Shown: piece after piece, positions 9,869-57,920 of the stretch
Layout: every line of letters begins with the position of its first letter
Position numbering within the stretch: the stretch's first letter is position 1
From: Rugalucina vietnamica
Taxonomy: Eukaryota > Mollusca > Bivalvia > Lucinida > Lucinidae
NCBI GenBank assembly: GCA_964017185.1
Contig: OZ024880.1
Span: 32,516,329 to 32,580,328, forward strand
Direction: 5' to 3'
DNA: 64,000 bases
Notes under the pieces: generated by a model
Told to the model about the DNA's origin: nothing
What the model saw: the letters and a program-made list of their open reading frames with translations, nothing else
The model's database searches: none
Translations under genes and position numbers: made by a program

Positions 9869-10551
9869 CTTTTCGAAATGATAGCATCACCATTCCAAAA
9901 ATAACTTTCCAAAAATCTCACTTTTGACTGGTTAACCCAATAGCGAAAAAAATCTATCGCTTCTAAAACTCACCCTCATACAGCGGAGCCAGCCGATATA
10001 GACAGAACCGGCCGATATGGACGGAGCCATTGTTTATTTTTTCTCAATTTTTTTCATTTTGATTCAAATTTTGTTTTTTCGTGAGTGGGGAAGGATTAGA
10101 TAATCGATTCATACATTCGGACGGTCTAAACATTTAGATAAGTAATATCTATGCAGAAAGAGCAATGTGGACATTATAGAAAATGACCTTTGTTTACCTC
10201 GCCGTGGCTCACGACAAAAGTGATTCAGACAAAACCGCTCCGACTTGGAACTCGCAAACAGACAAGGAAGTAAGTTGAAAGTCATGGGCCCCTCATACAA
10301 TTCCCCTTTTCTCGCTAGTGTTCAGTATAAAATCAAATTTTGACAATAAATGGAAAACTTACGTTTTCGTGTCCACCGAAACAGCCGAGACTGACGGCGC
10401 CGCACGTGACCGGAAAACCCCACACAAGATTTCCTTAACAGAGCCAATGGCTCCGTCTATGTAGTTTCCTCACCGTGATACAAGCCTCGTTAGTCATAGC
10501 TACCTTTCAACTGATCCTGTCCCGCATTTTTATGCAAAAGTTACACTTTGT

Positions 10552-10670
10552 ATCCAAATCACTTCTGAATCATAAATTAGCCGTTGATTCTTCCCTTGAA
10601 ATATTTTTTTTCTGTAGACTATATGCATCCAGTATGGTACGCTATGTACAAAACCACAGTCATGTTTGTA
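10552..10670 (-). pseudogene. Decayed C-terminal fragment of the zinc-finger gene
   Basis: Read on the minus strand, this piece aligns with the last finger and tail of the adjacent gene: CTGGATGCATATAG corresponds to CCGGATGCATATGC, followed by the TATTTCAAGGG shared with the tail codons. Stops and gaps break the frame. Part of it (41975-42008) also lies beside copy 2, so it predates the segmental duplication. It indicates an older tandem or partial duplication. Confidence 0.55.
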
Positions 10671-10820
10671 TGAAACCATGCTAACGAGGGTAGCATGTTC
10701 ACGTCATCCGTATCCATATTTTGCTTAATTAAACTATTAGGATTACAGAATAATATATATGCATGTGAATAACTGCCAGTATGGGGAACAACAATGTATC
10801 AAGATTATCTTCCTAAGCGT

Positions 10821-12824
10821 CTAACTATTTTCGAGTTTCATGCTTGGATCACTTTCATCAGCAAAGTTCATTCTATTCAATGCAAATGCTTCATCCCTTG
10901 AAATAGAATGCTTTTTCTGCATATGCATCCGGTACGGCGTGCTCTGTATGAATCCATGGTTGCAAATGCCACATATGTATCTAAAGTCACCGGTATGAGT
11001 CATAACGTGTCGTTTGAGAGCAACTGGGTCAGCGAACTTCCTACCACAATAGCTACATTCCAAACTCGGGGCAAAGTGGGTCGCCCTGTGGCGCTCCATG
11101 TTATGTTTAGCAAAGAACTGATTACCACAGACATCACAAATATATCGTTTTACCTTCTGGTGCAAATTCATTATATGCTTTTGATAGCCTTTCTTCGTTA
11201 CAATGTCAATGCCACATGTTTCACAGTGATAGTATTGTCTATGTGTCTTTCTATGTCTCTCACGTTCTGGTATAGATGAAGCTACATGATCACAATGCTT
11301 ACAAGAAAGGTTTTGTATGGAATGGATTCGCTTATGGCTCACAAGTGACTTCTCATTCGCACATGTTTTGCCACAGATCTCACAGACTGCAAGGGCTTCA
11401 TCTGGTTCTGGCTTCATTGCTGCTGCCATATGCCTCCTTTCGTGTTCCCTCCTGGAATGTGTTCTTAAAACTTTGTTGCATATTTCACATGTGAAGTATT
11501 TATCTTTCTTCGGACGTCCCTTTGATTTCCTTGTAGCATTGTGACATCTGACCATGTGTTGTCTCAAGTATTCTTTCATTATGGCTTTCCCACACTCTTC
11601 ACATTTCAATATTTCTTTCTTGCGAGGATATATTTTCCTTTTAGCTTTTATACATAATTTGTTTGTTTGGTGCAATTTTTTGTTCGTTTGGATCCAAATA
11701 CGACCATTTTCCTCCCAAAATGGTATTTTATGTAAAGCCAAGAGATTTTCCTTTGTAAATTCGTCTTCAATAAACTTGTGGCAATGCTCACATTTCATGT
11801 ATTTGCACTCCAATTTGGCCCTTTTCCAAATTAGATCACCAGTGTCATCATCTGCACTGTCGGTACTTTCATCCATGTAAACAAAATCTGGTTCTGTATT
11901 GGTCCGTTCAGTATTTTCAGTTCCTGCTGGAATATAGTCAGGGTCATCTATATCAATTTTATGTACATTTTCATCAGAGTCACCATCAGCTTTATATGCA
12001 GCTTTCCTCTTTCGTCTCCTCAGATATGTCTTCCCTTCACTTTCATTTGGCCTAGTACTTATCAATCTGTTACGTATCCTCCGAAATTTCTTCTCACTAG
12101 TTTCGGTTCGCTTTGTACTAGTTACTGATTGGTATTTATCAGTTGATGAAAAACCTTTGGTTGTATCTTCCTTAGCTGTCCGTTTAATAGTATTTTCTGT
12201 TTTAATGCTATCATCGATTCTCGTAAGCGATATTCTTAGTTCTTGCAAATGAAGCATACGCTGTTTAAAATCAGTTTCAGAAATGTTCCTATAGTGGTTT
12301 GTTTCATCTCCAGAATTTTTCAAAAGACGAGCACTTTTCTTCTGTTTATTGGCCTTATCAAGACATGTTTTTGAAGAATTCACCAATAATCTTTTCGAAC
12401 CTGGTCTTTGTCTTGTTGTCACGGGCTCAGGTGCCATGTCCTTAGATTCTGGCTTTTCATTTGCATCTTCCCTATCAGTTTCATCAAGTTCATTATTCAG
12501 TTCATTGCTCAAATTATCATAGCCATCATAATTATCACTGTCAGAAATTTCTTCATTTTTTATGTTTTGAGTCAGTCCTGCAAAACCATCTGTATTGGTC
12601 TCATCAACATCAGACTGACATGTTTGTGTAGCAACGTCAGTTTTTGCAGATACCGGGAATGCCGTCTGTATTGTGTTGTTGTAAAAGTAAGAGCCACCTT
12701 CAACATGTTCTCGCATGTGATCATGAAGCAAATATGCCGTGTCAAAATATGTATTGCAACCTCCACATTCATATTCTTTCCTTAGTTTCTTTATTCTTTT
12801 GTTGAAACGATTCCTTTTCTTCAT
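10821..12824 (-). CDS. C2H2 zinc-finger protein, 667 aa (copy 1)
   Basis: One uninterrupted exon. One finger lies near the N-terminus (C20, C23, H36, H40) and eight form a C-terminal block: C408-H428, C446-H465, C481-H501, C508-H528, C534-H555, C563-H583, C590-H610, C618-H639. A degenerate C345-C348 pair lacks a second histidine. Residues 80-335 are acidic and low-complexity with basic patches (267-275), and an AT-hook-like KGRPKK is at 435-440. This fits a nuclear DNA-binding regulator; no KRAB, BTB or ZAD domain was seen, and the N-terminal C20-X2-C23 belongs to a finger. The exon is preceded by an acceptor (TCTCCTTGCAG, minus strand, AG at 12875-12874), so a 5' non-coding exon probably lies upstream. 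The ATG is the first in frame after that acceptor. The orthologue is unknown. Confidence 0.93.
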   Translation of the reverse strand: MKKRNRFNKRIKKLRKEYECGGCNTYFDTAYLLHDHMREHVEGGSYFYNNTIQTAFPVSAKTDVATQTCQSDVDETNTDGFAGLTQNIKNEEISDSDNYDGYDNLSNELNNELDETDREDANEKPESKDMAPEPVTTRQRPGSKRLLVNSSKTCLDKANKQKKSARLLKNSGDETNHYRNISETDFKQRMLHLQELRISLTRIDDSIKTENTIKRTAKEDTTKGFSSTDKYQSVTSTKRTETSEKKFRRIRNRLISTRPNESEGKTYLRRRKRKAAYKADGDSDENVHKIDIDDPDYIPAGTENTERTNTEPDFVYMDESTDSADDDTGDLIWKRAKLECKYMKCEHCHKFIEDEFTKENLLALHKIPFWEENGRIWIQTNKKLHQTNKLCIKAKRKIYPRKKEILKCEECGKAIMKEYLRQHMVRCHNATRKSKGRPKKDKYFTCEICNKVLRTHSRREHERRHMAAAMKPEPDEALAVCEICGKTCANEKSLVSHKRIHSIQNLSCKHCDHVASSIPERERHRKTHRQYYHCETCGIDIVTKKGYQKHIMNLHQKVKRYICDVCGNQFFAKHNMERHRATHFAPSLECSYCGRKFADPVALKRHVMTHTGDFRYICGICNHGFIQSTPYRMHMQKKHSISRDEAFALNRMNFADESDPSMKLENS

Positions 12825-12873
12825 TATTTAGTTGAGTGTGTTACCGGAGGAAGCAGCTGCCTTGAAAATATTC

Positions 12874-12884
12874 CTGCAAGGAGA
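12874..12884 (-). promoter_or_regulatory. Splice acceptor before the zinc-finger coding exon
   Basis: On the minus strand, TCTCCTTGCAG followed by GAATATTTTC is a good 3' splice site 50 bp before the start codon. The paralogue keeps it as TCTCTTTGCAG. It argues for a spliced 5' UTR and against copy 2 being a processed retrocopy. Confidence 0.6.
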
Positions 12885-13110
12885 TATCAGATACAAATGA
12901 AACCAGAGGACCAACGGCCCTGTAAACGCTCACCTGAGATCTGCTATATTAACCAAATATTTATCAAAAACATTTGCCCTTTATGGGGCCCCACCAACCA
13001 ATCAAAATTAAGGATTAGGGCAAAAGTAAACCAAACTGTAGAGGACTACTCTATAAACATTTCTGCAAAAATAGAATTCAAATATCTGCGACTGGACCAG
13101 AAGAAAATAG

Positions 13111-16100
13111 CTCGTCAGCATCGAATGACAGTTCTTCGTCATTGTCATCTAACATGTCCGATCTTCTTCACGAAATGCTAAACCAAAACCACCATTTATC
13201 TTTTGTACACTATAATGAACAAAGCTTACTACCTAAAATTGATTTATTACAGGCAGAACTACAGAATTTCGACAATATCGCACTGACCGAAACATGGCTA
13301 CACGCGGGTATTGATACTGAAGAACTCGTGCTCCAACCATTTAATCCTCCAGAACGCAAAGACAGACAAACTGACAGGCATGGGGGTGTGATTTTGTACA
13401 TTAAGGAAGGTATAAATTATCGTCGCAGGCATGATTTAGAAACCGGACGTGTCGAATGCATATGGATCGAGATAACTAATAGACAAAGGCACATTCTTTT
13501 TGGGATATTTTATCGACCACCTGAAGCAGATGCAGAATATTTCACTTTTATTGAACATTCGGTTAATATGGCCACTGATACTGGATGTAACGACATTGTA
13601 ATCACTGGAGACTTCAATTTAAATATGTTCAAAAATAATTCAGCGAGGAAGATAAATTTGTTTTGTTCAGATTTTGGAATGCACCAATCAATAACGGAGC
13701 CTATAAACTATACAGAACGTTCAGAACCTTCTTTAATAGACCTTATTCTGGTACATAACCCTGACAGTCTTGTTGCTAGTGGTGTTGGTGACCCTTTTCT
13801 TGAACAGAATTTACGGTTTCATTGTCCTATTTTCAGTCTCCTTAAATTTCCAAAAAACAAAAGTTAAATCATACACGCGGCAAATATGGAATTATGCACT
13901 CGGGAATTACGATCTTCTGCGAGCTAAGGCTTCTGAGACAGAGTGGGATTCTTTGCGTCATGCAAGTTTGGATACATACGTCATAAATTTCACAAACCAC
14001 ATTTTACAATTAGCGAAAGAATGCATACCCAACAAACTTGTGAGGATAAGACCTGCAGACCCACCATGGCTTACGTCATATATTAAAAGATTTATATGCA
14101 AACCAAAAAGAGCATACAGAAAAGCGAAACGAACAGATTTGGCTATTCACTGGGAAAAATTTAGGAGGCTACGAAACAAAGTCACTTTGCTCATACGGGA
14201 GTCCAAACAAGCACACACTGACAAAATTGCAAATAAACTCAAATCTGATTCCATTTCTTCTCGTAGCTGGTGGTCCATTCTCAAATCTTTCATTTCGCCA
14301 ACCTTTAAAACAGCAATACCACCGTTAGATCATAATGGTAGATTGTATACTGAAGAACAGGATAAAGCCAATCTTCTCAATACTTTTTTCTGCGAACAAA
14401 CAATCCTTAACGAACAACACGCCGCGCTTCCAGATATTACACCATATGCTGTCACAACACGCTTCGCTAGACTAGTCTTAACACCAGACGAAGTCGAATC
14501 GGTTTTGAAATCTTTAGCTGACGGCAAAGCTTCGGGTCCAAACGGTTTGAATAATCGAGTTCTTAAAGAGCTTGCAAGCGAAATCTCAGAACCTCTCTGT
14601 TCTCTTTTTAACAACTCTTTGAATCTAGGATCCTTCCCTACCCCCTGGAAGGAAGCTAATATCTCTCCGATTCCCAAAAAAGGTGACCTTTCTCTCTTAA
14701 GGAACCATAGGCCGGTATCTCTTCTGAATGCTGAATCAAAAGTCTTTGAACGCCTTGTTTTCAAACACCTCTTTAATCACATACGAGATAATAACATCTT
14801 AACTCCTTTACAATCAGCATTCATTCCAGGCGATTCAACTGTTAATCAGTTGACATTCCTCTACAATACATTCTGGATGAAGAGAAAGAAATCAGGGTTA
14901 TCTTTTGCGATATTAAAAAGGCTTTCGACCGTGTCTGGCATGCTGGCTTGTTACACAAACTCAAGGCGTGTGGTATCTCAGATAATATTCTCGACTGGTT
15001 TAAAGATTACTTATTTGAAAGAAGGCAGAGAGTTGTCCTTCCTGGTATTTATTCCGAATGGTCATATACCAAAGCCGGTGTTCCACAGGGCTCAGTCCTA
15101 GGGCCATTACTTTTTTTGATATTTATTAATGACATTGTTACTGACATTGGTTCTAATATTCGACTCTTTGCTGATGATACCAGTCTTTATATCGTAGTAA
15201 CAGATCCAGACGCATCAGCCGAAATACTGTCATCGGATCTCATGAAAATTGACAACTGGGCCGATCAATGGCTAGTTACATTTCAGCCACCCAAGACAAA
15301 TATCTCTTATCATGACGCGGAAGACTGACAAACCTGCTCATCCTCCACTTTTTATGCAAAATCACGAAATTAAAGAAGTCAATTCACACAAACATCTTGG
15401 ATTACATTTTTCTCATGATGGATCTTGGCACCACCAGATAAAATATATTAAAGATAAGGCTTGGGCACGAGTCAATGTAATGAGAAAACTTAAATTTAAA
15501 CTTGATCGTAAATCTCTTGAAACAATATACACTTCATTCATCAGGCCGATTCTCGAATATGGAGACGTTGTCTGGGACAATTGCGCCCAATATGAGAAAG
15601 ACGAATTAGAGAAGATTCAAAATGAAGCTGCCCGAATAGCTACTGGCACTACTCGTTTAGTATCTCTTGAATCACTTTACAACGAAATTAATTGGGATTC
15701 CCTTCAGAAAAGACGCAATGACCACAAGCTTACTCTCTTTTTTAAAATGAAAAACAACTTGACGCCACAATATCTTTCTGATCTTGTCCCTCAGACAGTA
15801 GGCCAATCCACAAGGTACAGCTTAAGGAATTCGAATGACCTTCAAACTATATACACGCGAACAGCTTTATATCACAACTCTTTTCTGCCGTCTACTATCA
15901 GGGACTGGAATAACCTGACATCTGAAACAAGACAGATTGGTAATGTTAATACCTTCAAACACTATTTAAACAGAGAAAGAGAACGTGTTCCTAAGTACTT
16001 TTACAACGGCAGCAGGAGAGGTCAAATGCTACATACTCGTCTTCGCACTAAGTGCAGTAGCTTAAATAAAGATCTTTTCGATAAGAAAATAGTTGTATCT

Positions 16101-16815: not shown

Positions 16816-18260
16816 AAATAGCCAATTTCCACTTTTCCCGTTTTAAGTCTATCGAAACTTTAAGTTGCCATACCAACCAGATTTCTCATCCGACTGAAAT
16901 AAAAAAAAAAAAAACAACAAAATATGTAGAGACTACTGTCTCGTCCTTGTGGTGGAATCTTGGATTAAGTCCGTCAGCCCGGCATGACGAAAAACTGCCA
17001 CTTTCTTCTACTACTACTACTAGAGACTACTGTCAGGAACATGTATACAAAGTACAGGCTTCATGCCGTAGACAATTTCTGAGGAGAAGATTTTTAAATG
17101 TTTTTCCTTATGTGGCCCCAGCAACCAATCAAAATAAAGGATTAGGAAAAAAGTCACTTGAAACATAGAGATATACTCAATAAATATTTCTGCAAAGACA
17201 AAATTCAAATACCTACAATTGGTCCAGAAAAAATAGCTAATTTCCACTTTTCCTATTATAAGTCTATGGAAACCATAGCAACCAGAGTTCTTATTCGACT
17301 GGAATAAAAAAAAAACACAAATTATGTAGAGGCTACTGTCAGGAACATGTATACAAAGTACAGGATTCATCCACTTGACAATTTCTGAGAAGATTTTTGA
17401 ATGTTTTTTTTTTCTTCAAAATTGTGCCTTTTATGGGGTGCCAGCAACCAATCAAAATAAAGGATTAGGACAAAACTCACAAGTAACGTCAAACACTACT
17501 CAATAAACATTTCTGCAAAAACAAAATTCAAATGTCTGCAATTTTAGCGAAAAAATAGCCGATTTCCACTTTTCCCATTATAAGGAACTTCAAGTTGCCA
17601 TAGCAACCAGAGTTCTTATCCGCCTGGAATAAAAAACATAAATTATGTAGAGGCCACTGTCAGGAACATGTATACAAAGTACAGGCTTAATCCCTTTGAC
17701 AGTTTCTGAGAAGAAGATTTTTGAATGTTTTTTTGAAATTTTGCCCTATATGGGGCCCCTACAACCAATCAAAATAAAGGATTAAGACAAAAGTCATATG
17801 AAACGTAGAGGACTACTCAATAAACATTTCTGCAAAAACAAAATTCAAATATCTCCAAGAAGATAGAAAAAACTGGCAATTTTCACTTTTTTTCAATTAT
17901 AAGTCTATGGGAATCATAAGTTACCATAGCAACCAGAGTCCTTATCCGATCAAACCAAAAACACAATTATTCTTTCCCCCTACCTGTAGATGGTGTATGT
18001 GTAATATGAGAACAATCGGCCCAGCGGTTTCAGAGAAGAAGATCTTTGAAATTGTGGACGACGACGGACGGACGCCGGACGGACGAACAGACGCCGGATC
18101 ATGGGTATACTATAAGCTCACCTGTGAGCCTTCAGCTCAGATGAGCTAAAAAGGAATCCCATATACATAGGTTATTCAACTGGAAATGGAAAAACCCTCT
18201 GAGCTGCTAACCAGTGCAGCCCCTCTCAGCTGCTAACCAGCGCAACACAAAAGTCACTTT

Positions 18261-18950
18261 TCCCAGAATCATCAGTGATTCCTCAGTTTGATTCATCATG
18301 GTGTTTATTATAATTTATTTGCCTGTCCGTGATGATTCATTGACTCGTTAGAGATTCACCACGAGGATAAAATAACTAAATAAAATTTTGTGAACCACTG
18401 CACAAGCTGAAGGTGATGTTAGTTAACAACCTTAATATAAATAAAATATAATTGTTAGATCCTTTGGAAGCAGTAAAAACATTCAAAGAGAGAAGGTGGG
18501 CCATATTGTACAATTTCGGGTAATGAACCTTCATCAGTGACCCTTTACAAAACTGGCAGCGAAAGCCAGACATTCATGATTACTGCAATTTCTAGAATTT
18601 ACACAAGTATAGTCTAAATCAAAGACTAATATTCCAAAAGAGGCCAAATATTCTAAATTCTGTTAAGATGGTGTTACTTAACATACAATATATTTGAAAT
18701 ACTCCAAATATTTTCACTTATCTCAAAGGATCGATTTAAAATCGATTTAAGGCCCCGTAATTTTATATTACTGACCATTCCAAGGGGATACAAGTATCTA
18801 TTGTGGTTGTAACTGTTTTATGTTTTGGTGTTGAATTTTGTGCTGTTTCCATCTTATTGACGTTTTCATATATTTAGTTAGATCCATAAAACTGAGTTAC
18901 CACCTACTGGGAAAGGGAAATAGCTGCTCAGCTATTTCAGAAGTCTTCTC
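18261..18950 (+). repeat. Dispersed repeat X, long form containing one satellite-like monomer
   Basis: The left part (18261-18425, with GTTAGAGATTCACCACGAGGA) and right part (18745-18925, with TTATGTTTTGGTGTTGAA) match the repeat that breaks the LINE at 53340-53838. Between them, 18432-18718 is a diverged reverse-orientation copy of the 378-bp monomer forming the array at 28105-33313. This is the only monomer seen outside the array. Confidence 0.75.
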
Positions 18951-20253: not shown

Positions 20254-21673
20254 TCACTGAGTCTCCTCATCATCAGCCAAGATATCAGGCAGAACCATGC
20301 GTCTAGGATTTTTCCTAGCATAGAGTTTTACAATGTCCCTAGGTTCAATGTGAATGTCTCTGTGTCTGCTTAACAGACAAAGTCCAGTGAGTCTGTCCTG
20401 CTCCATGGTAGCCCGCAACTTGGTCTTCACTATTCCCAATGTGCTTATGTTCATCTCACATTCACAAGATGTTACAGGGAATGTGGCAGTGATTTGGAGC
20501 ACTGTCTTTATATTGGGGTAGAGTTGTCCATTGCACACTTTTAGGGTTTCCTGTAGTGTGGCTGGAGGAGTCTGATCTGTCCACTTCCTCCTCCAGAGCT
20601 CAATCTCTTGGCTCAATGTAGCAGGGGAGGGAAGATCATCTTAAAAAAATGACAGCGTCTGTGCCTTCACTGAAGTTTCTACTGGCGGAATGAGATGTAG
20701 GCCCATGGTCCCCTTTCTGTTCAGCTCACAGAATCTGTCCGCCATCTGTTGATTTAGATGGTCCAGGAAAGGTATCACAAGAGAGCGTTTGTAATACTCT
20801 TCTGGTGTTGAGGATGGTGTGTTGGCTCTCTTGGTTTGCCTTCCACAGAGACTTGGGACAGATGGCTGAACATCAATTGTCTCCGCCAGTTTAACTGCTT
20901 CAGTGAAGAGCTCCCCACTGTATGGATCTATATTCTCTCGCAGCTTCCTCAATGTGTCCGCAACTATAGTCACCTCATCCATGGCCCTCACAATGTCTAA
21001 CGCTCTTCCTGAAAAATAACAGAGATATATGAGCAAAACAGTAGACCAGATAAAATAAATCCATGGACAAGTCTTCACAATAGACTCTAGGATCACCATG
21101 TTGTTTTCTTGGCGCTTTCTCAGGGCGGAATCCATCTGGATAACAATATTGGTATTCTCCTCCATACAACCAATGAACTTCTCGGCCCGATAACGATTGT
21201 CGGCATGTGCTTGATAGCCAGCCCCACCATCTGATTTGCAACCTCTGCTCCCAAAGAGATGTTCGTTACACTTCTCTTTTGCATGTTTCCAGTTTCGATA
21301 GACAGATTTCACTAGTACCCCACGTTTACCATCTCTGTCACAAGGAAACATGCAGCAGAAGATGCACAGAATCCCATCAGTCTTCTCACTGTAAACCAAT
21401 CCTGGGTATTCTGAAAGCCACTGTCGCTGAAAACTTCTCTTCTTCGGTCCGAACTGGGACAGGGGAAAGGTTGTTCCCAGTTTTGGTGTCCAGTCATTTT
21501 TCAAGATACGAAACTTCAACGAATCCTCCAAAGGCCTGTTGATGTAGTCAGTAATGTCAGACAGAAACAGACCAGGACTCTGGTCAGATGTACTTTGCTG
21601 GCTGTTTGCTGAATTGTCTTTGTCTTCATGACTCGGAGTGTCCTGGCTGCTGGCCTCAGATGATGACTCAACA
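20254..21673 (-). pseudogene. hAT transposase (TTF-type zinc finger, ZMYM/P52-like), internally deleted
   Basis: On the minus strand an acceptor (TTTCTACTTTCAG, about 21674) opens an exon with DITDYINRPLEDSLKF and then a TTF/BED-like finger (SFQRQWLSEYPGLVYS, ILCIFC). After ENNMVILESIVKT the sequence runs into intron-like DNA with acceptor TATTTTTCAG (about 21009) and resumes at GRALDIVRAMDEVT. The central RNase-H-fold region expected between these parts is absent. An in-frame TAA lies at 20641-20643, after which the hAT dimerisation domain follows (YPNIKTVLQITATFPVTSCE, then LRATMEQDRLTGLCLLS), ending at 20254. It cannot encode an active transposase. Confidence 0.85.
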
Positions 21674-22446
21674 CTGAAAGTAGAAATAAGTGATATTTGA
21701 TTCGGGATCTTATTTTTTAAGAAACATTAATGCAGAAGAATGCGTTCAAGTGCCATGTCACATGCGCTAAGAGAATATATGCTGAAAATTGTGGTCAGTG
21801 CCCTGTGACCTACCCCCCCCCCCCCCGAAAAAATAATCATGACAATGTCACATCATGTCCACAAAGCTGCACAGAATATTGTGTGCTCTACTCTCCCTGA
21901 CTAAATTTTTCAGTCTATTTCCCTAGATACCCCACCCATCACTGACCACAGTAAAAACGAAAGTAGATAACAAATACAAAATAAACAAACCATGCTCGTT
22001 TCGCTGGAGAAAAATAAGACGTGATCACCGCAGATCGCTTCATTTTGAGAGAATGACATGTAATGACTTACCGATTGCATTATAAGTTGATAGATTATTG
22101 TTTTATGGCCATCATTAAAATTTTGGTAATTTTTGTCCAACATCAAACGCACCGACAAGCGAAACCGTGTTCCTTTACTCTCATTCGATTGGTCAAATGG
22201 GCACTTACTCGACCAATCAAATTGATCGTTGCAACTTCCCTTGAACACTGTGCAATGCCGTTTCGGTCGATACGGCATCTGGTTTTCTGTAAATCATTTC
22301 GCGCGACAGGCGGTAAGATAACCGGGATTATCTACTGCTAGGGGCACAATAACAGCAGCCAGACACAGTTGTTTGCAATTTGCAATGTCTTAATTGGGGG
22401 CATTTGGTGTAACATGGTCAATGCACAAGAAAAAAAAAGGCTTGCT

Positions 22447-28104: not shown

Positions 28105-31100
28105 CCTAAAAAGTCTCCCCGTACATCATCCATAGTGCAGATTATATTTTTCTTTTGATCCTTTGGGATCAGTGAGAATATTTGGAGTATTTAAAATTTA
28201 TTGTACGCTAAGAATCATCTTCTTAACAGTATTTTGATTATTTGGCCCCTTTGGGATTAAGAGTCTTTGATTTAGACTACACTGGTGTAAATTCTTGAAG
28301 TTGCAGAATTAATGTCTGGCTTTCGCTGCCGGTTTTGTAAAGGGTCACTGATGAAGGTTCATTACCCGAAATTGTACAATATGGCCCACCTTTTCACTTT
28401 TAATGCTTTTACTGATTTCAAAGGATCTAACAATTATATTTTATTTGCTATTACTGCAGCTGGTGTTGTGCCGTGTGGCGGCCCTAAAAGTCTCCCCGTA
28501 CATCATCCATAGTGCAGGTTATATTTTTCTTTTGATCCTTTGGGATCAGTGAGAATATTTGGAGTATTTAAAATTTATTGTACGCTAAGAATCATCTTCT
28601 TAGCAGTATTTTGATTATTTGGCCCCTTTGGGAATAAGTCTTTGATTTAGACTACACTGGTGTAAATTCTTGAAATTGCAGAATTAATGTCTGGCTTTCG
28701 CTGCCGGTTTTGTAAAGGGTCACTGATGAAGGTTCATTACCCGAAATTGTACAATATGGCCCACCTTTTCACTTTTAATGCTTTAACTGATTTCAAAGGA
28801 TCTAACAATTATATTTTATTTGCTATTACTGCAGCTGGTGTTGTGCCGTGTGGCGGCCCTAAAAAGTCTCCCCGTACATCATCCATAGTGCAGGTTATAT
28901 TTTTCTTTTGATCCTTTGGGATCAGTGAGAATATTTGGAGTATTTAAAATTTATTGTACGCTAAGAATCATCTTCTTAACAGTATTTTGATTATTTGGCC
29001 CCTTTGGGAATAAGAATCTTTGATTTAGACTACACTGGTGTAAATTCTTGAAATTGCAGAATTAATGTCTGGCTTTCGCTGCCGGTTTTGTAAAGGGTCA
29101 CTGATGAAGGTTCATTACCCGAAATTGTACAATATGGCCCATCTTTTCACTTTTAATGCTTTTACTGATTTCAAAGGATCTAACAATTATATTTTATTTG
29201 CTATTACTGCAGCTGGTGTTGTGCCGTGTGGCGGCCCTAAAAAGTCTCCCCGTACATCATCCATAGTGCAGATTATATTTTCCTTTTGATCCTTTGGGAT
29301 CAGTGAGAATATTTGGAGTATTTAAAATTTATTGTACGCTAAGAATCATCTTCTTAACAGTATTTTGATTATTTGGCCCCTTTGGGAATAAGAGTCTTTG
29401 ATTTAGACTACACTGGTGTAAATTCTTGAAATTGCAGAATTAATGTCTGGCTTTCGCTGCCGGCTTTGTAAAGGGTCACTGATGAAGGTTCATTACCCGA
29501 AATTGTACAATATGGCCCACCTTTTCACTTTTAATGCTTTTACTGATTTCAAAGGATCTAACAATTATATTTTATTTGCTATTACTGCAGCTGGTGTTGT
29601 GCCGTGTGGCGGCCCTAAAAAGTCTCCCCGTACATCATCCATAGTCAAGATTATATTTTTCTTTTGATCCTTTGGGATCAGTGGGAATATTTGGAGTATT
29701 TAAAATTTATTGTACGATAAGAAGCATCTTCTTAACAGTATTTTGATTATTTGGCCCCTTTGGGAATAAGAGTCTTTGATTTAGACTACACTGGTGTAAA
29801 TTCTTGAAATTGCAGAATTAATGTCTGGCTTTCGCTGCCGGTTTTGTAAAGGGTCACTGATGAAGGTTCATTACCCGAAATTGTACAATATGGCCCACCT
29901 TTTCACTTTTAATGCTTTTACTGATTTCAAAGGATCTAACAATTATATTTTATTTGCTATTACTGCAGCTGGTGTTGTGCCATGTGGCGGCCCTAAAAAG
30001 TCTCCCCGTACATCATCCATAGTGCAGATTATATTTTTTTTTATCCTTTGGGAGCAGTGAGAATATTTGGAGTATTTAAAATTTATTGTACGCTAAGAAT
30101 CATCTTCTTAACAGTATTTTGATTTTTTGGCCCCTTTGGGTATAAGAGTCTTTGATTTAGACTACACTGGTGTAATTCTTGAAATTGCAGAATTAATGTC
30201 TGGCTTTCGCTGCCGGTTTTGTAAAGGGTCACTGATGAAGGTTCATTACCCGAAATTGTACAATATGGCCCACCTTTTCACTTTTAATGCTTTTACTGAT
30301 TTCAAAGGATCTAACAATTATATTTTATTTGCTATTACTGCAGCTGGTGTTGTGCCGTGTGGCGGCCCTAAAAAGTCTCCCCGTACATCATCCATAGTGC
30401 AGATTATATTTTTCTTTTGATCCTTTGGGATCAGTGGGAATATTTGGAATATTTAAAATTTATTGTACGCTAAGAATCATCTTCTTAGCAGTATTTTGAT
30501 TATTTGGCCCCTTTGGGAATAAGAGTCTTTGATTTAGACTACACTGGTGTAAATTCTTGAAGTTGCAGAATTAATGTCTGGCTTTCGCTGCCGGTTTTGT
30601 AAAGGGTCACTGATGAAGGTTCATTACCCGAAATTGTACAATATGGCCCACCTTTTCACTTTTAATGCTTTTACTGATTTCAAAAAAAGGTACAAGTAGG
30701 CAAAGATCAGGAAAAGGCGCAATCAGAAAAAGATTCCCACTCCAAAAACCGAGGTGGGAAAAACCAAACCAACAATCAGGTACTTATACCATGAAACATA
30801 TCGTAAGCCGAATGAGCAGCTATTTTCCCAATAGGTGGCCACTCAGTTACCTTAACTTAACTAAAAATATGAAAACATACATAAGGCGCCAACAGCACAA
30901 AAATTTTTTTCAAACACCAAGACATAAAACGAAAAAAACCACCACAGAAGTATCGACTTGGAACGATCAGTAACACAAAGTTACTGGCGGGCTTAAACCG
31001 GTTTTACATGGCCATAACCAAAGGATCTAACAATTATATTTTATTTGCTATTACTGCAGCTGGTGTTGTGCCGTGTGGCGGCCCTAAAAAGTCTCCCCGT

Positions 31101-33313
31101 ACATCATCCATAGTGCAGGTTATATTTTTCGTTTGATCCTTTGGGATCAGTGAGAATATCTGGAGTATTTAAAATTTATTGTACGCTAAGAATCATCTTC
31201 TTAGCAGTATTTTGATTATTTGGCCCCTTTGGGAATAAGAGTCTTTGATTTAGACTACACTGGTGTAAATTCTTGAAATTGCAGAATTAATGTCTGGCTT
31301 TCGCTGCCGGTTTTGTAAAGGGTCACTGATGAAGGTTCATTACCCGAAATTGTACAATATGGCCCACCTTTTCACTTTTAATGTTTTAACTGATTTCAAA
31401 GGATCTAACAATTATATTTTATTTGCTATTACTGCAGCTGGTGTTGTGCCGTGTGGCGGCCCTAAAAAGTCTCCCCGTACATCATCCATAGTGCAGATTA
31501 TTATATATTTTTCTTTTGATCCTTTGGGATCAGTGAGAATATTTGGAGTATTTAAAATTTATTGTACGCTAAGAATCATCTTCTTAACAGTATTTTGATT
31601 ATTTGGCCCCTTTGGGAATAAGAGTCTTTGATTTAGACTACACTGGTGTAAATTCTTGAAATTGCAGAATTAATGTCTGGCTTTCGCTGCCGGCTTTGTA
31701 AAGGGTCACTGATGAAGGTTCATTACCCGAAATTGTACAATATGGCCCACCTTTTCACTTTTAATGCTTTTACTGATTTCAAAGGATCTAACAATTATAT
31801 TTTATTTGCTATTACTGCAGCTGGTGTTGTGCCGTGTGGCGGCCCTAAAAAGTCTCCCCGTACATCATCCATAGTGCAGATTATATTTTTCTTTTGATCC
31901 TTTGGGATCAGTGGGAATATTTGGAGTATTTAAAATTTATTGTACGCTAAGAATCATCTTCTTAACAGTATTTTGATTATTTGGCCCCTTTGGGAATAAG
32001 AGTCTTTGATTTAGACTACACTGATGTAAATTCTTGAAATTGCAGAATTAATGTCTGGCTTTCGCTGCCGGTTTTGTAAAGGGTCACTGATGAAGGTTCA
32101 TTACCCGAAATTGTACAATATGGCCCACCTTTTCACTTTTAATGCTTTTACTGATTTCAAAGGATCTAACAATTATATTTTATTTGCTATTACTGCAGCT
32201 GGTGTTGTGCCATGTGGCGGCCCTAAAAAGTCTCCCCGTACATCATCCATAGTGCAGATTATATTTTTTTTGATCCTTTGGGATCAGTGAGAATATTTGG
32301 AGTATCTAAAATTTATTGTACGCTAAGAATCATCATCTTAACAGTATTTTGATTTTTTGGCCCCTTTGGGTATAAGAGTCTTTGATTTAGACTACACTGG
32401 TGTAATTCTTGAAATTGCAGAATTAATGTCTGGCTTTCGCTGCCGGTTTTGTAAAGGGTCACTGATGAAGGTTCATTACCCGAAATTGTACAATATGGCC
32501 CACCTTTTCACTTTTAATGCTTTTACTGATTTAAAAGGATCTAACAATTATATTTTATTTGCTATTACTGCAGCTGGTGTTGTGCCGTGTGGCGGCCCTA
32601 AAAAGTCTCCCCGTACATCATCCATAGTGCAGATTATATTTTTCTTTTGATCCTTTGGGATCAGTGGGAATATTTGGAGTATTTAAAATTTATTGTGCGC
32701 TAAGAATCATCTTCTTAGCAGTATTTTGATTATTTGGCCCCTTTGGGAATAAGAGTCTTTGATTTAGACTACACTGGTGTAAATTCTTGAAATTGCAGAA
32801 TTAATGTCTGGCTTTCGCTGCCGGTTTTGTAAAGGGTCACTGATGAAGGTTCATTATCCGAAATTGTACAATATGGCCCACCTTTTCACTTTTAATGCTT
32901 TTACTGATTTCAAAGGATCTAACAATTATATTTTATTTGCTATTACTGCAGCTGGTGTTGTGCCGTGTGGCGGCCCTAAAAAGTCTCCCCGTACATCATC
33001 CACAGTGCAGATTATATTTTTCTTTTGATCCTTTGGGATCAGTGAGAATATTTGGAGTATTTAAAATTTATTGTACGCTAAGAATCATCTTCTTAACAGT
33101 ATTTTGATTATTTGGCCCCTTTGGGAATAAGTGTCTTTGATTTAGACTACACTGGTGTAATTCTTGAAATTGCAGAATTAATGTCTGGCTTTCGCTGCCG
33201 GTTTTGTAAAGGGTCACTGATGAAGGTTCATTACCCGAAATTGTACAATATGGCCCACCTTTTCACTTTTAATGCTTTTACTGATTTCAAAGGATCTAAC
33301 AATTATATTTTAT
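28105..33313 (+). repeat. 378-bp satellite array, about 13 monomers
   Basis: Equivalent points recur at 28312, 28687, 29065, 29443, 29821, 30196, 30574, 31290, 31673, 32051, 32426, 32804 and 33181, spacing 375-383 except where a 338-bp insertion sits. Monomers are about 97-99% alike. Each contains a 74-codon open frame starting MSGFRCRFCKGS, but array homogenisation explains this without selection. Blocks 29443-30574 and 31673-32804 share private variants at a constant 2230-bp offset, a higher-order duplication. A diverged single monomer lies at 18432-18718. Confidence 0.97.
30685..31018 (-). mobile_element. Repeat X right half inserted in a satellite monomer
   Basis: About 334 bp, the reverse complement of 53507-53838 with very high identity, interrupts one monomer. 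CAAA at 30681-30684 is repeated at 31019-31022 as a short target duplication. The equivalent monomer starting at 32804 is uninterrupted, giving the exact pre-insertion sequence. Confidence 0.9.
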
Positions 33314-41904: not shown

Positions 41905-44225
41905 TACTACGATCGTGTCCTGAATTGTATGCAAAGTTACTCTTTGTATCCAAATCACTTCTGACTCATAAATTAGCCGTTGATTCTTCCCTTGAAATAT
42001 TTTTTTTCTATTAGGATTACAGAATAATAATTTATATGCATGTGAATTAACTGCCAGTAGGGGGAACAACAATGCATCAAGAATATCTTCCTAAGCGTCT
42101 CCTAACTATTTTCGAGCTTTCATGCTGGGCTCACTTTCGTCAGCAAAGTTCTTTCTATTCAATGCAAATGCTTCATCCCTTGAAATAGAATGCTTTTTCT
42201 GCATATGCACCCGGTACGGCGTGCTCTGTATGAATCCATGGTTGCAAATGCCACACAAGTATCTAAAGTCACCGGTATGAGTCATAACGTGTCGTTTGAG
42301 AGCAGCTGGGTCAGCGAACTTCCTACCACAATAGCTACACTCCAAACTCGGGGCAAAGTGGGTCGCCCTGTGGCACTCCATGTTATGTTTAGCAAAGAAC
42401 TGATTACCACATACATCACAAATATATCGTTTTACCTTCTGGTGCAAATTCATTATATGCTTTTGATAGCCTTTCTTTGTTACAATGTCAATGCCACAGG
42501 TTTCACAGTGATAGTATTGTCTATGTGTCTTTCTATGTATCTCACGTTCTGGTATAGATGAAGCTACATGATCACAATGCTTACAAGAAAGGTTTTGTAT
42601 GGAATGGATTCGCTTATGGCTCACAAGTGACTTCTCATTCGCACATGTTTTGCCACAGATCTCACAGACTGCAAGGGCTTCGTCTGGTTCTGGCTTCATT
42701 GCTGCTGATATATGTCTCCTTTCGTGGTCCCTCCTGGAATGCGTTCTTAAAACTTTGTTACATATTTCACACGTGAAGTATTTATCTTTCTTCGGACGTC
42801 CCTTTGATTTCCTTGTAGCATTATGACATCTGACCATGTGTTGTCTCAAGTATTCTTTCATTATGGCTTTCCCACACTCTTCACATTTCAATATTTCTTT
42901 CTTGCGAGGATATATTTTTCTTTTAGCTTTTATACATAATTTGTTTGTTTGGTGCAATTTTTTGTTCGTTTGGATCCAAATACGACCATTTTCCTCCCAA
43001 AATGGTATTTTATGTAAAGCCAAGAGATTTTCCTTTGTAAATTCGTCTTCAATAAACTTGTGGCAATGCTCACATTTCATGTATTTGCACTCCAATTTGG
43101 CCCTTTTCCAAATTAGATCACCAGTGTCATCATCTGCACTGTCGGTACTTTCATCCATGTAAACAAAATCTGGTTCTGTATTGGTCCGTTCAGTATTTTC
43201 AGTTCCTGCTGGAATATAGTCAGGGTCATCTATATCAATTTTATGAACATTTTCATCAGAGTCACCATCAGCTTTATACGCAGCCTTCCTCTTTCGTCTC
43301 CTCAGATATGTCTTCCCTTCACTTTCATTTGGCCTAGTACTTATCAATCTGTTACGTATCCTCCGAAATTTCTTCTCACTAGTTTTGGTTTGCTTTGTAC
43401 TAGTTACTGATTGGTATTTATCAGTTGATGAAAAACCTTTGGTTGTATCTTCCTTAGCTGTCCGTTTAATAGTATTTTCTGTTTTAATGCTATCATCGAT
43501 TCTCGTAAGCGATATTCTTAGTTCTTGCAAATGAGGCATACGCTGTTTAAAATCCGTTTCAGAAATGTTTGTATAGTGGTTTGTTTCATCTCCAGAATTT
43601 TTCAAAAGACGAACACTTTTCTTCTGTTTATTGGCCTTATCAAGACATGTTTTTGAAGAATTCACCAATAATCTTTTCGAACCTGGTCTTTGTCTTGTTG
43701 TCATGGGCTCAGGTGTCATTTCCTTAGATTCTGGCTTTTCATTTGCATCTTCCCTATCAGTTTCATCAAGTTCATTATTCAGTTCATTGCTCAAATTATC
43801 ATAGCCGTCATAATTATCACTGTCCGAAATTTCTTCATTTTTTATGTTTTGAGTCAGTCCTGCAAAACCATCTGTATTGGTCTCATCAACATCAGACTGA
43901 CATGTTTGTGTAGCAACGTCAGTTTTTGCAGATACCGGGAATGCCATCTGTACTGTGTTGTTGTAAAAGTAAGAGCCACCTTCAACATGATCTCGCATGT
44001 GATCATGAAGCAAATATGCCGTGTCAAAATATGTATTGCAACCTCCACATTCATATTCTTTCCTTAGTTTCTTTATTCTTTTGTTGAAACGATTCTTTTT
44101 CTTCATTATTTAGTTGAGTGTGTTACCGGAGGAAGCAGCTGCCTTGAAAATATTCCTGCAAAGAGATATCAGATACAAATAAAAACCAGAGGACCATTGG
44201 TTCTGAGAACGCTCACCTGAAATAT
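41905..44225 (-). repeat. Segmental duplication, copy 2 (zinc-finger gene)
   Basis: Counterpart of 10500-12911. On the upstream side it keeps about 40 bp of the H2 element start (AAAACCAGAGGACCATTGG, AACGCTCACCTGA) and then passes directly to flank segment R at 44226. It therefore lacks the LINE-bearing tandem element, repeat X and the composite block seen in copy 1. Confidence 0.9.
42106..44106 (-). CDS. C2H2 zinc-finger protein, 666 aa (copy 2)
   Basis: Same architecture as the 667-aa paralogue at 10821-12824: one N-terminal finger, acidic middle, eight C-terminal fingers, all Cys and His ligands kept. About 22 residues differ. Inside finger C-to-H spans the changes are E460D, R523I, R578C, M633V (each just before the first His, helix position +6) and V601A (+2). 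The tail differs because of an indel (ARK instead of LENS). The frame is intact over 2 kb despite the changes, which argues for a functional gene rather than a relic. The splice acceptor (TCTCTTTGCAG, AG at 44157-44156) is conserved. The target DNA is unknown. Confidence 0.93.
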   Translation of the reverse strand: MKKKNRFNKRIKKLRKEYECGGCNTYFDTAYLLHDHMRDHVEGGSYFYNNTVQMAFPVSAKTDVATQTCQSDVDETNTDGFAGLTQNIKNEEISDSDNYDGYDNLSNELNNELDETDREDANEKPESKEMTPEPMTTRQRPGSKRLLVNSSKTCLDKANKQKKSVRLLKNSGDETNHYTNISETDFKQRMPHLQELRISLTRIDDSIKTENTIKRTAKEDTTKGFSSTDKYQSVTSTKQTKTSEKKFRRIRNRLISTRPNESEGKTYLRRRKRKAAYKADGDSDENVHKIDIDDPDYIPAGTENTERTNTEPDFVYMDESTDSADDDTGDLIWKRAKLECKYMKCEHCHKFIEDEFTKENLLALHKIPFWEENGRIWIQTNKKLHQTNKLCIKAKRKIYPRKKEILKCEECGKAIMKEYLRQHMVRCHNATRKSKGRPKKDKYFTCEICNKVLRTHSRRDHERRHISAAMKPEPDEALAVCEICGKTCANEKSLVSHKRIHSIQNLSCKHCDHVASSIPEREIHRKTHRQYYHCETCGIDIVTKKGYQKHIMNLHQKVKRYICDVCGNQFFAKHNMECHRATHFAPSLECSYCGRKFADPAALKRHVMTHTGDFRYLCGICNHGFIQSTPYRVHMQKKHSISRDEAFALNRKNFADESEPSMKARK

Positions 44226-52279: not shown

Positions 52280-52984
52280 TCTTTTCGCGACCTGAACCGT
52301 TTGCATGTTTTCGCTTCTACTCTTCTCGGCTATTAACATACAGCCCCTTTCACTCGAGTTTGCCGTTTGAGCATCTAGGTCGATCAAGTTTGTTCACTCG
52401 AGTTTGCCGTTTGTTTGTATATCAGGTAACTTTTTATTCTATTTTAGAACTGAAACAGGGTAATGTATAATTTAGGGACTTTTCTTGAGGGACCAAGGGA
52501 CCAGGGACCTGTCCCTCAAGGACCAAGAGCTATTGGTGTCTTTAAAGTCTTTGCTGCCTATCAAAATCTCTGGAAATTGCATAGATATGATTGCTTAATG
52601 TTTTCACGATTATCTGATTATCTAAAAACGTAGTTTTAATATTTGTGTCTCCTCCTCCCGTCACACACACCGACACGCTCACTTTTTGTGATGGAGGGTA
52701 CTGTGGCGGAGGGGTACCGCATTTGATATTACGGTCTGAGTATATGTTTACCGCCATGTACACGTAAAGAATGCTACACACCAATGAACTGTGTATTTGA
52801 GGTATGCCTTACAATATAAACTAAAGAGCTATATGCATTTTGTGCAATGCTTTGCAGTGTTCGGTAAAGACAAATACAATGCTACACGTGAAACAACACA
52901 ACTTTTTTTGATGGAGGGTACTGTACACCTGAACCAGACAATAGTCAAGGCCATACTCCACCGAGGCAGACAAATAGAGTAATC
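52280..52984. other. No gene recognised upstream of LINE
   Basis: Two small repeats are visible: CACTCGAGTTTGCCGTTTG (52351, 52393) and GATGGAGGGTACTGT (52690, 52910). The second pair may belong to the LINE 5' UTR. No ORF1-like protein was found. Confidence 0.4.
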
Positions 52985-52990
52985 AAAATC

Positions 52991-55900
52991 ATGAATATGA
53001 ACTGCAATAGCCTGGTCTCAGACAATAAGCACAATAAGCATGCACTCTTGGCGAGCATGCTGGAGGAACATAAACCTGATGTTCTCTGCGTATGTGAGTC
53101 TAAGCTGGATTCCGCTATTAGTGACTCTGCAGTGCTCCCCCCCCCCCCCCCCCCCCCCAGCTGTGGATATGAAATTATCAACAGGAAAGACCATCGGCTA
53201 GGTGCTGGCGGAGTGTTAATAGCAGTGAAGAACACTTTTGTAGCATCCCCGGTGATGGACCTCGATACAGATTGTGAAGTTACTTGGAGCCGCATAGAGT
53301 TAGCCAAAACAAACCTCTATTCATTGGTTCATTCTATAGAACACCCTCAATTGATGACCCTGGGGTATTCCTGGTTTTTGATTCATCAGGATGTTTATCA
53401 TGATTTATTTGTTTGTTCTTGATGATTCATTGACTAGTTAGAGATTCACCACGAGGACCGAATAACTAACTAAATGTTATGAACCACTGCAGAAGCTGAG
53501 GGTGAGGTTATGGCCATGTAAAACCGGTTTAAGCCCGCCAGTAACTTTGTGTTACTGATCGTTCCAAGTCGATACTTCTATGGTGGTTCTTTTTGTTTTA
53601 TGTCTTGGTGTTTAAAAATTTTTTGTGCTGTTGGCGCCTTATGTATGTTTTCATATTTTTAGTTAAGTTAAGGTAACTGAGTGGCCACCTATTGGGAAAA
53701 TAGCTGCCCATTCGGCTTACGATTGTTTCATGGTATAAGTACCTGATTGTTAGTTTGGTTTTTTCCCACCTCGGTTTTTGGAGTGGGAATCTTTTTCTGA
53801 TTGCGCCTTTTCCTGATCTTTGCCTACTTGTACCTTTCAACAAACTGCATGAATCTGTCTCAAGGCCAACCAGCAGAGGTGCATCTCTACCAAATATAAT
53901 CCTGAATGGAGACTTTAACATACCGGATATCAACTAGGAAAATTCCTCCATCAGCTCAAATCCCAATTACTCCACAATTCTCAACAATGCTATGTTAGAC
54001 TTTGTGAATGCCAACTACCTAACACAGATGACCGACAAACCCATACGGAATGACAATGTCCTGGATTTGACCCTTTCAACCAACCCGGATCTTATTTCAG
54101 ACTTGGAAATCCAACCCGGAATGATTGACCACTGTGCAGTTACCTACAATGTTAATCTGGCAGTCAAGAGGCAGAAGAAGCCAGACCGTTATGTATACCA
54201 ATATCGAAAGGGAGATCTTGAGGGGGTGAAGCGAGATTTAGGAGAGTTTAAAGAAAAGTTCTTGTCTAATGACCCACTTGGAAGACCTGTCGACGACAAC
54301 TGGAATCTCTGCAAGGATGCTCTTTCCTCTTCAATAAAAAGAAACATACAGGTCTCAGAAGAAGATCCCCTCCAGATGGAATCTTCCCTGGATGACACCA
54401 GAAATCAAGAGGCTATGTCGCAAGATGCTTGGGATGCCGGAAGACATAACAGGAACAGCCACTACTGGAAACGCTATCTTAAGCTTAGGAAATTAGTAAC
54501 AGATTCAATCCAGGAGTCACACAGGTCGTATGTCGACAACATCCTAAATGTCAGCATAAACGACAATCCTAAGAAATTCTACTCCTATATGAAGCAGAAG
54601 AAATCTGGGCAAAGCAACACCCAGTCCTGAAATCTGATGGTAATCTCCTGAGTGAGCCAGCAGAAGTTGCAGAAACCCTAAATTCTCAATACACTTCGCA
54701 GTTCACAAGAGAACCAGATGGTCCCCTACCATACATTAACAGTCAACTAGTACCTTCAATGCCGGACATAGAGTTCACTGCCCCAGGCATAGAAAAGCTG
54801 CTCAACAACCTGAACCCAGCTAAAGCATCTGGCCCCGATATGGTCCCAGCAAGAATACTGAAACTGGCATCAAAGGAACTTGCACCAGTACTGAGCCTCA
54901 TATACCAGCAGTCCTATGACACTGGCCAAATACCATCTGACTGGCAGAAGGCGAATATCACAGCTGTCTTCAAAAAGGCGACAAGACTAACCCGGCTAAC
55001 TACAGACCAGTCTCATTGACCTGCACAGTCTGTAAATCTATGGAGCATATTATTTACAGCCAAATAATGAGTCACCTTGACAGACACAACATTCTCGTCG
55101 AATTCCAGCATGGACTCCGAGCCAATCACTCCAGGACCTGCGAAACACAGTTACTCAACACAGTCGAAGACCTTTCTCGAAGACTTGACAGAAGGAAGAC
55201 CACAGACTTGCTGATACTCGATTTCAGCAAAGCCTTTAATACTGTGGCTCACCGAAGACTTCTTCACAAGATCCAACTTTATGGAGTCACTGGAAGGACC
55301 AACAGATGGATCAGTTCATGGCTTTGCGACCGCCAGCAACGAGTTGTCCTTGATGGATCATCTTCATCAGACTCGCCAGTCCTCTCTGGTGTGCCGCAGG
55401 GCACTGTCCTGGGTCCACTAAAGTTTCTCCTGTATGTGAATGACATTGCAGCCAAGGTATCACCACAGACCACTGTCAAACTCTTTGCGGTTGACTGTCT
55501 CCTGTACAGAACCATAGAATCTGCCGCCGACTCATTTCAGCTGCAACAAGGCCTCGACAGTATGGTGGATTGGTCAAATACCTGGCTTATGAGATTCAAT
55601 GCCTCCAAATGCCACCTCCTCAAGATCAAGACCACAAAACAGAAATGCCTACCAACTGTTTACAACATCAAGGGAGTACAGCTACAGCAAGTCGACCATC
55701 ACCCATACCTCGGTGTTGAACTCACTGCAGACTTGACCTGGAAAACCCACATCAGCAATATCACCAGCAAAGCAAACAGATTCCTCAACCTGCTACGTCG
55801 CCATCTTTACAGCTGCAACCAGTAGGTGAAATCCAGAGCCTTCACATCCCTTGCGCGCCCACATCTTGAGTATTCCTCTTCCGTCTGGGACCCTTATCTC

Positions 55901-56400: not shown

Positions 56401-57384
56401 TACTTTTACATCTGATTCCTCAGTCACCGCCACAGTGAAGGTCCGTACCAGAATCAATTACTGTGTTACAAGTGAAAATAATGATTCCAGTCTCTTGGCT
56501 GTTTTTCGACCAAGTCGTTTAAGATCATTTTGTGACCCAGATTTTAACTTATATGGAAGAAACCGATTGTCATGGAATCGTCATTGATCCATATACACAT
56601 TATTTTCCGATGTAAATTATGTTTTCTTTTATTTTTTATTACATTCATATTTTATCTTCATATCTACTCTGAAAGATTGATAATAACTATCACATAAAAT
56701 GGAAGGTACGGGAACAATTTACTGTGTCGGCGCTCTTGAAAATCTGATTTATGTGACGTAAAAATATTCCATATGATACAAAAAAGTATGAATGAATCGA
56801 CGAAGCGAAACTTGTAATGCAGTTTTATGAATGAAACTATTATCCCGCGATGTAATTCTGCCTCGAAAAAGAATAACAGTGACTAGCCTGTTTGTTTATT
56901 AGCACAACAGGTACGAGATTATATTCTCAAACGATCCTATTGGTTGGGTAAACAATAAGCTGGCGATTTGCCGTACCAATACCAGGGAAAAGTTAAACTC
57001 ATAACTTATGTCTTGCCGGCTTATTTAAGCTATTAGAACTGTTGGAAAACTGACCTTGAATTCTAAATTACCGACATATCATTTGCTATATATAGGTACA
57101 GGCACAGGTCAAATGTAGGAATCGATTAGATAAATCATATATGCAATAAATGGATTGCATTTTGCACCATTGCATTCTCTCTTAATGTCTGAATTTATAT
57201 GCACACAAATAATGCGGCAAATTTTGCTTTAAAAGTGCATTTTATACTCAAAAGCGTGTTGCAGACGACAATTATTACACTGCGTGTAACCCCAATTTTA
57301 CCTGCAATCAGTATAGTACAACTGTTAAAACGAGATATAAAAAGTTCCTTTTAAAAAGAATGTCTGTCCAATATTGAAAATAAA
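56401..57384. other. No recognisable feature
   Basis: AT-rich DNA with scattered stops in all frames; no repeat relationship to the rest of the window was noticed. Confidence 0.4.
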
Positions 57385-57920
57385 AAATAAACCAGAGGAC
57401 CATTGTTCCTGAGAACGCTCATCTGAAGCCTGATTTTGGAGCATTTAGTCATCATAAAATGAACTTGACACACCTTTATTGATTTCATAAGTTTCAGGTC
57501 TTAGACTGCAATAGTTTCGAAAAATCCACTGTTTTCACTTTTTTTTTTCATATAAAAGCTAGTTTCCAAAGTTGACCTTGCCGTAAAATAGGTCAAGGTC
57601 ACCTTTGGTTATCATTAACAAACTATGATGGGCTAAGGTCCCTGATGCTATATACCAAGTTTCAGGAATATCAGCCCACGGATTCTGGAGAAGCTGTTTG
57701 AGCATTTTTGAGCATGGCAGCCATGTTGAGCATTCAAACCAGATTTTCGGTATAAAATTTTGTTCCCTTTAAGCACGGAGGCTAAAATTTCACTTTCAAA
57801 AGCCCAGTGATTTCTGAGATAACCATAATCTTAATTTTGATATTTCAAAGACCTTGGGCCAAGGTCAAAAAATGACCTTGACATTATCAATATACTTACA
57901 GGAATTTCGTGTCATTTGAA
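57385..57920 (+). repeat. Fragment of an H2-related tandem element
   Basis: It starts with AAACCAGAGGACCATTG and GAACGCTCATCTGAAG as at 12895 and 44183, then diverges into a different core with GACCTTG/CAAGGTCA words (57573-57605, 57852-57886). This indicates another member with the same start and a different core. Confidence 0.5.

Follow-up and report, generated by a model that had tools for sequence, protein, structure and literature searches.

Two recent copies of a nine-finger C2H2 gene whose within-finger differences fall mostly at predicted DNA-contact residues

Lineage-specific expansions of poly-zinc-finger (poly-ZNF) genes, comprising KRAB-ZNF genes and their relatives, carry signs of positive selection at helix positions –1, 3 and 6, as laid out in the available part of Emerson and Thomas (2009, PMC2604467), where the two insects listed in the table did not reach significance. 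For zebrafish, FiNZ-ZNFs have been described together with a metazoan model of coevolution between ZNFs and transposable elements (TEs) (Wells et al. 2023, available part; PMC10547256). The accessible main text of a cephalopod C2H2 paper (PMC12513265) does not contain the term ‘positive selection’, and our search for literature on positive selection or tandem duplication among oyster C2H2 genes returned nothing on topic, from which we make no claim of absence for molluscs.

The window, i.e. the entire 64-kb stretch of DNA analyzed here, contains two intact C2H2 zinc-finger open reading frames (ORFs) on the minus strand, 31 kb apart within this one sequence. Copy 1 (10821–12824) encodes 667 aa and copy 2 (42106–44106) 666 aa; the ORF list, finger geometry and Pfam agree on their presence, as put forward in an earlier, sequence-only reading. 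By geometry, both proteins harbor nine fingers with complete zinc ligands and thus belong to the multi-finger C2H2 class: finger 1 spans aa 20–40, and fingers 2–9 span aa 408–639 (minus strand, 10908–11603 in copy 1 and 42190–42885 in copy 2, as placed by finger geometry and alignment). In Pfam, PF00096 matched seven stretches of copy 1 (E = 7.8e-21, 73.7 bits) and six of copy 2 (E = 2.5e-17, 62.7 bits). When E-values as high as 10 were allowed for both proteins, a setting at which HMMER filters still remove most matches above about 0.1, Pfam listed 12 and 11 families, with KRAB, BTB, SCAN and ZAD not among them. The best 60 of 167 PDB matches of copy 2 had their best stretch within aa 481–650, and none of these 60 had it in the N-terminal 480 aa. 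Canonical Krueppel-type arrays are defined by TGEKP-like linkers between fingers. Here, only the linker between fingers 8 and 9 (TGDFRYI) resembles this usual type, the remaining ones being SIQNLS, RQYYH, QKVKRYI, FAPSLE and longer sequences. With linkers mostly non-canonical, the canonical contact geometry used below is an assumption, which weakens any inference of base preference.

Each ORF lies within a duplicated block on the minus strand, extending from 10513 to 12937 around copy 1 (2,425 bp; self-comparison and alignment) and from 41911 to 44220 around copy 2 (2,310 bp; self-comparison). Over the main stretch (10734–12937 vs. 42008–44220), the blocks are 97.2% identical in a self-BLAST from which rows of ≤150 bp had been filtered out. 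The copy 2 block has a sharp 5′ edge at 44220 and a gradual 3′ edge, and the 3′ flank of copy 1 holds 122 nt more than that of copy 2. As no collinear same-strand match between the copies was found beyond the block in the 1.5–1.8 kb of flank compared, the arrangement points to a dispersed duplication, with both copies on one strand, rather than a long tandem duplication. No further copy was detected in the window, where tblastn with an E-value limit of 1 returned these two only. Pattern searches yielded 6 matches in viral contigs and 16 in genome contigs; tblastn confirmed none of them, which is what an animal gene would lead one to expect. The window had no Rfam match at the gathering threshold and no tRNAs. 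The copies would represent a single nine-finger C2H2 gene, with an intron-free ORF, that was recently duplicated at the DNA level. A retrocopy is not favored, given that the 3′ edge shows no poly(A) tail (judged by eye) and that no target-site duplication was found. A candidate acceptor-like TTGCAG upstream of the ATG, likewise spotted by eye, is kept in both copies.

Alignment of codons 1–663 revealed 43 nucleotide and 22 amino-acid differences; beyond them, the last residues differ (LENS vs. ARK) owing to a 1-nt indel at codon 663/664, and codons 664 to the end were excluded from all counts because of this frameshift. We defined contacts as positions –1, 2, 3 and 6 of the nine fingers (36 codons). 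Five of the 22 replacements fall on contacts, one elsewhere in a finger and 16 outside the fingers, the latter comprising 11 in the N-terminal part, three in linkers (466, 467 and 617) and two at the C-terminus (652 and 659). The title of the sequence-only reading, according to which the paralogues differ ‘almost only at DNA-contacting positions’, is therefore wrong for the proteins as a whole, and a narrower version holds for their fingers, where 5/6 changes affect contacts. All six finger substitutions it named (E39D, E460D, R523I, R578C, V601A and M633V) were recovered from the alignment, and the five it assigned to contacts are placed correctly, four at +6 and one at +2, with none at –1 or +3. 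These are (all on the minus strand) codon 460 at +6 of finger 3 (E in copy 1, 11445–11447; D in copy 2, 42727–42729), codon 523 at +6 of finger 5 (R, 11256–11258; I, 42538–42540), codon 578 at +6 of finger 7 (R, 11091–11093; C, 42373–42375), codon 601 at +2 of finger 8 (V, 11022–11024; A, 42304–42306) and codon 633 at +6 of finger 9 (M, 10926–10928; V, 42208–42210). The sixth, E39D, is a non-contact change in finger 1, at the residue immediately preceding that finger's second His. In line with the earlier assertion of unchanged zinc ligands, the ligand/core class carried no replacement in any of the nine fingers. Three of the five contact exchanges are mild (E/D, M/V and V/A), and R523I and R578C alone plainly alter a base-reading residue, the latter through a CpG-type transition (CGC/TGC).

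To what extent could chance account for this concentration? Under a mutation-weighted null, whose transition bias and CpG weighting were both set by us, the probability of at least five contacts among 22 replacements was 0.008, that of at least five contacts among six finger changes 0.0016, and that of any single finger column receiving at least four of the six 0.0012. Simpler nulls gave P = 0.0055 and 0.0011. The concentration persisted when ligand and core positions were left out (P = 0.0056), when contacts were compared with non-finger sites under the simpler null (P = 0.012), and when the null was weighted by between-finger diversity (P = 0.005). All of these null tests are post hoc, since the pattern was chosen after being seen. 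In a codon model, ω (dN/dS) was 1.37 at contacts and 0.23 at all remaining residues (P = 0.0037), and contacts were likewise separated from non-finger residues (P = 0.009); by class, ω was 1.37 for contacts, 0.06 for the scaffold and 0.29 for other residues. The raw counts run in the same direction, with five non-synonymous (N) and one synonymous (S) change at contacts against 1 N and 6 S at non-contact finger positions. Taken together, null tests and codon model indicate that contact residues evolve faster than the rest, and the claim that within-finger change is concentrated at specificity residues thus holds up.

Silent-site divergence between the copies is about 4%. Whole-protein ω was 0.29 by likelihood (P = 2e-4 vs. 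1) and 0.39 when changes were counted (22.5 N, 20.5 S). Across the 1,989 nt of codons 1–663 there is not a single indel, whereas the aligned non-coding sequence has five in 275 nt (P = 3e-5 by Fisher's test; P = 1.5e-4 if the 1-nt indel at codon 663/664 is taken as coding), the non-coding sample being small at five events; the alignment also has a 3-nt gap just after the copy 1 stop. Low whole-protein ω and the indel-free codons 1–663 suggest that both copies are probably kept functional by selection. A stretch of 326 nt without any difference (42920–43245 and 11638–11963; codons 288–395; P = 0.019 under uniform placement) may reflect either an unannotated domain under strong constraint or gene conversion; the latter, if it took place, would bias local rates. 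Inspection by eye of the same stretch revealed a CEHC...H...C pattern.

Several other accounts of the pair were weighed against this background. Allelic divergence of about 3% is within range for very heterozygous invertebrates, and the copies differ by about that much at the nucleotide level; yet a single 64-kb sequence carries both, with 31 kb between them, and they lack collinear same-strand matches outside the block (1.5–1.8 kb flanks). A pair of alleles, or an artefact of assembly, in place of true paralogues is hence hardly credible. Neither does copy 2 look like a gene in decay, having lost its function and collecting degenerative finger changes, which we hold to be very improbable. Its lower PF00096 score (62.7 vs. 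73.7 bits, six vs. seven stretches) would suit decay, as would the changes from R to I and from R to C, which would be losses if copy 1 were ancestral. However, codons 1–663 of copy 2 contain no premature stop or indel, ligand and core residues are unchanged, non-contact finger positions show 1 N vs. 6 S, and no coding indel was observed where about 18 are expected if one copy were unconstrained. The lower score is at most a hint that copy 2 may be the derived one. Turning to the origin of the duplication, either block has its 5′ edge on a module of the form TCAGGTGAGCG...TGGTCCTCTGGTTT, also spelled TCAGGTGAGCG...CCTCTGGTTT, of 38–45 nt in length, at 44183–44220 for copy 2 (self-comparison) and 12900–12937 for copy 1. 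It recurs on the same minus strand at a third site (57383–57427), at which no homology to the two zinc-finger proteins was found. Three matches of this kind were obtained in 0/100 shuffles, and the 113 aligned nt of 5′ flank contain eight mismatches, six of them in the first 24 bases, inside the module. This module may be one end of a dispersed element; a degenerate version of its pattern had no exact match in viral contigs, and a literature text search for TCAGGTGAGCG retrieved no mobile-element or mollusc paper, judged by title. That a mobile element (rolling-circle or similar) moved the block, the 5′ module being its end, would explain why the 5′ edge lies on a module present a third time away from zinc-finger genes, and fits the different repeats just outside the copies (11 nt from copy 2 and 36 nt from copy 1). 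Against this, no target-site duplication was found (the flanks share a word of at most 6 nt for copy 2 and none of at least 6 nt for copy 1), the 3′ edge fades gradually with no second terminus recognized, and the hairpins predicted at the three sites are weak and unlike one another; as an account in its own right, the mobile-element scenario is improbable. A mobile-element (Helitron-like) origin of the copy is possible and would be compatible with the main explanation favored below.

A further alternative, the view of the sequence-only reading, is that positive selection diversified the DNA-binding specificity of the two copies, as in an arms race of ZNFs, and this we consider rather unlikely. 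On its side are the five of six finger changes at contacts, point estimates of contact ω above 1 (1.37 in the codon model, 1.9 by counting) and the same concentration in selected vertebrate paralogue families (PMC2604467, PMC10547256; available parts of both). However, the codon-model estimate does not differ from an ω fixed at 1 (P = 0.55), with an approximate 95% interval of about 0.5–3 (grid values from two sequences), nor does the estimate by counting (5 N, 1 S; P = 0.48). Five contact replacements likewise compare with 3.1–3.7 expected from the silent or non-coding rate (P = 0.20–0.32). Three of the five changes are mild, and the five pile up at +6 while –1 and +3 are untouched, whereas published selected sites were concentrated at –1, 3 and 6 (PMC2604467, available part). 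Finger number is equal in the two copies, a state kept in only one of 24 human and mouse expansions, a two-paralogue group, in the accessible portion of that study. These points against positive selection are weak, as two sequences give very low power; a pair allows neither polarity nor a per-branch test, so that one copy could hold most of the replacements. The check suggested in the earlier reading, dN/dS at positions –1, 2, 3 and 6 against the rest, yields a difference between the two classes (1.37 vs. 0.23, P = 0.0037) and no significant excess over 1 (P = 0.55). Specificity divergence driven by selection is not established: contact ω is not distinguishable from 1, and five changes fit the neutral rate. 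Given this interval around 1 and the neutral expectation, neutral drift on a frozen scaffold fits the data as well as selection does. A bolder variant, in which duplication within a non-KRAB invertebrate family was followed by adaptive retuning of base recognition, mainly at +6, on a frozen scaffold, possibly in conflict with the surrounding transposons, we regard as unlikely.

We favor, as the likely explanation of the whole, recent duplicates with a frozen finger scaffold, contact residues changing at an approximately neutral rate and a probable difference in base preference. After the duplication, the contact residues would have been largely freed from constraint and would have changed at about the neutral rate. 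Both proteins most likely bind DNA, as predicted from their sequences, and would do so through fingers 2–9. Arginine at +6 classically reads a 5′ G, and under the canonical recognition scheme the two proteins probably differ in base preference, mainly because fingers 5 and 7 have lost or gained an Arg at +6.

As to the genomic setting, repeats are common across the window. Four of ten other open stretches matched Pfam families: Exo_endo_phos at 13019–13864 and 52892–53419, and RVT_1 at 54941–55822 and, below the curated cut-off, at 13740–15098, indicating LINE-type elements near copy 1 and elsewhere in the window. A further open stretch on the minus strand (20644–21726), which we take to resemble a fragment of a hAT/TTF-type transposase, had no Pfam match at E ≤ 0.01. 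The proximity of transposons to copy 1 does not count as evidence that transposons are targeted, and nothing ties copies 1 and 2 to transposon control. Both the repeats and the kinds of transposon in the window would suit a mollusc. Among the other repeats is a 378-bp satellite array (28105–33313; 6.8 + 6.1 units) that is broken at 30686–31019 by a sequence 97% identical to 53506–53837 (inverted), and whose unit shows diverged inverted similarity (about 87–88%) to 18433–18732. A 317-bp tandem array of about 2.8 units (17021–17890) is located downstream of the LINE-type element, an order that would suit a second element beginning there with its promoter monomers; the segment at 12973–13112, upstream of and overlapping the LINE-type start (13019), resembles its units (80–88% identical).

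Among solved structures, PRDM9, ZNF568 and ZBTB24 are top PDB matches of copy 2; they have C2H2 arrays in common with it, and the resemblance is one of generic finger similarity. Like the KRAB-ZNF expansions, in the available part of their description (PMC2604467), the present pair consists of C2H2 paralogues of recent origin that show a concentration of change at helix contacts and unchanged ligands. Unlike those expansions, copies 1 and 2 have no KRAB, SCAN or BTB domain according to Pfam, have mostly non-canonical linkers, number two in the window, share an equal finger number and show a contact ω indistinguishable from 1 (PMC2604467, same portion). With FiNZ-ZNFs, as far as the accessible part of PMC10547256 describes them, they have in common a multi-finger ZNF architecture, a repeat-rich animal sequence and contacts that changed more than the scaffold; they differ from them in possessing no N-terminal accessory domain by Pfam, which may hold no FiNZ model (PMC10547256, same part). 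Concentration of change at contact residues is thus a known pattern, of which the two copies are a new example: mainly a lead, and a clean, small illustration of scaffold constraint with free contact residues. Should further family members show both this concentration and ω above 1, the vertebrate pattern would extend to a non-KRAB, probably invertebrate, family.
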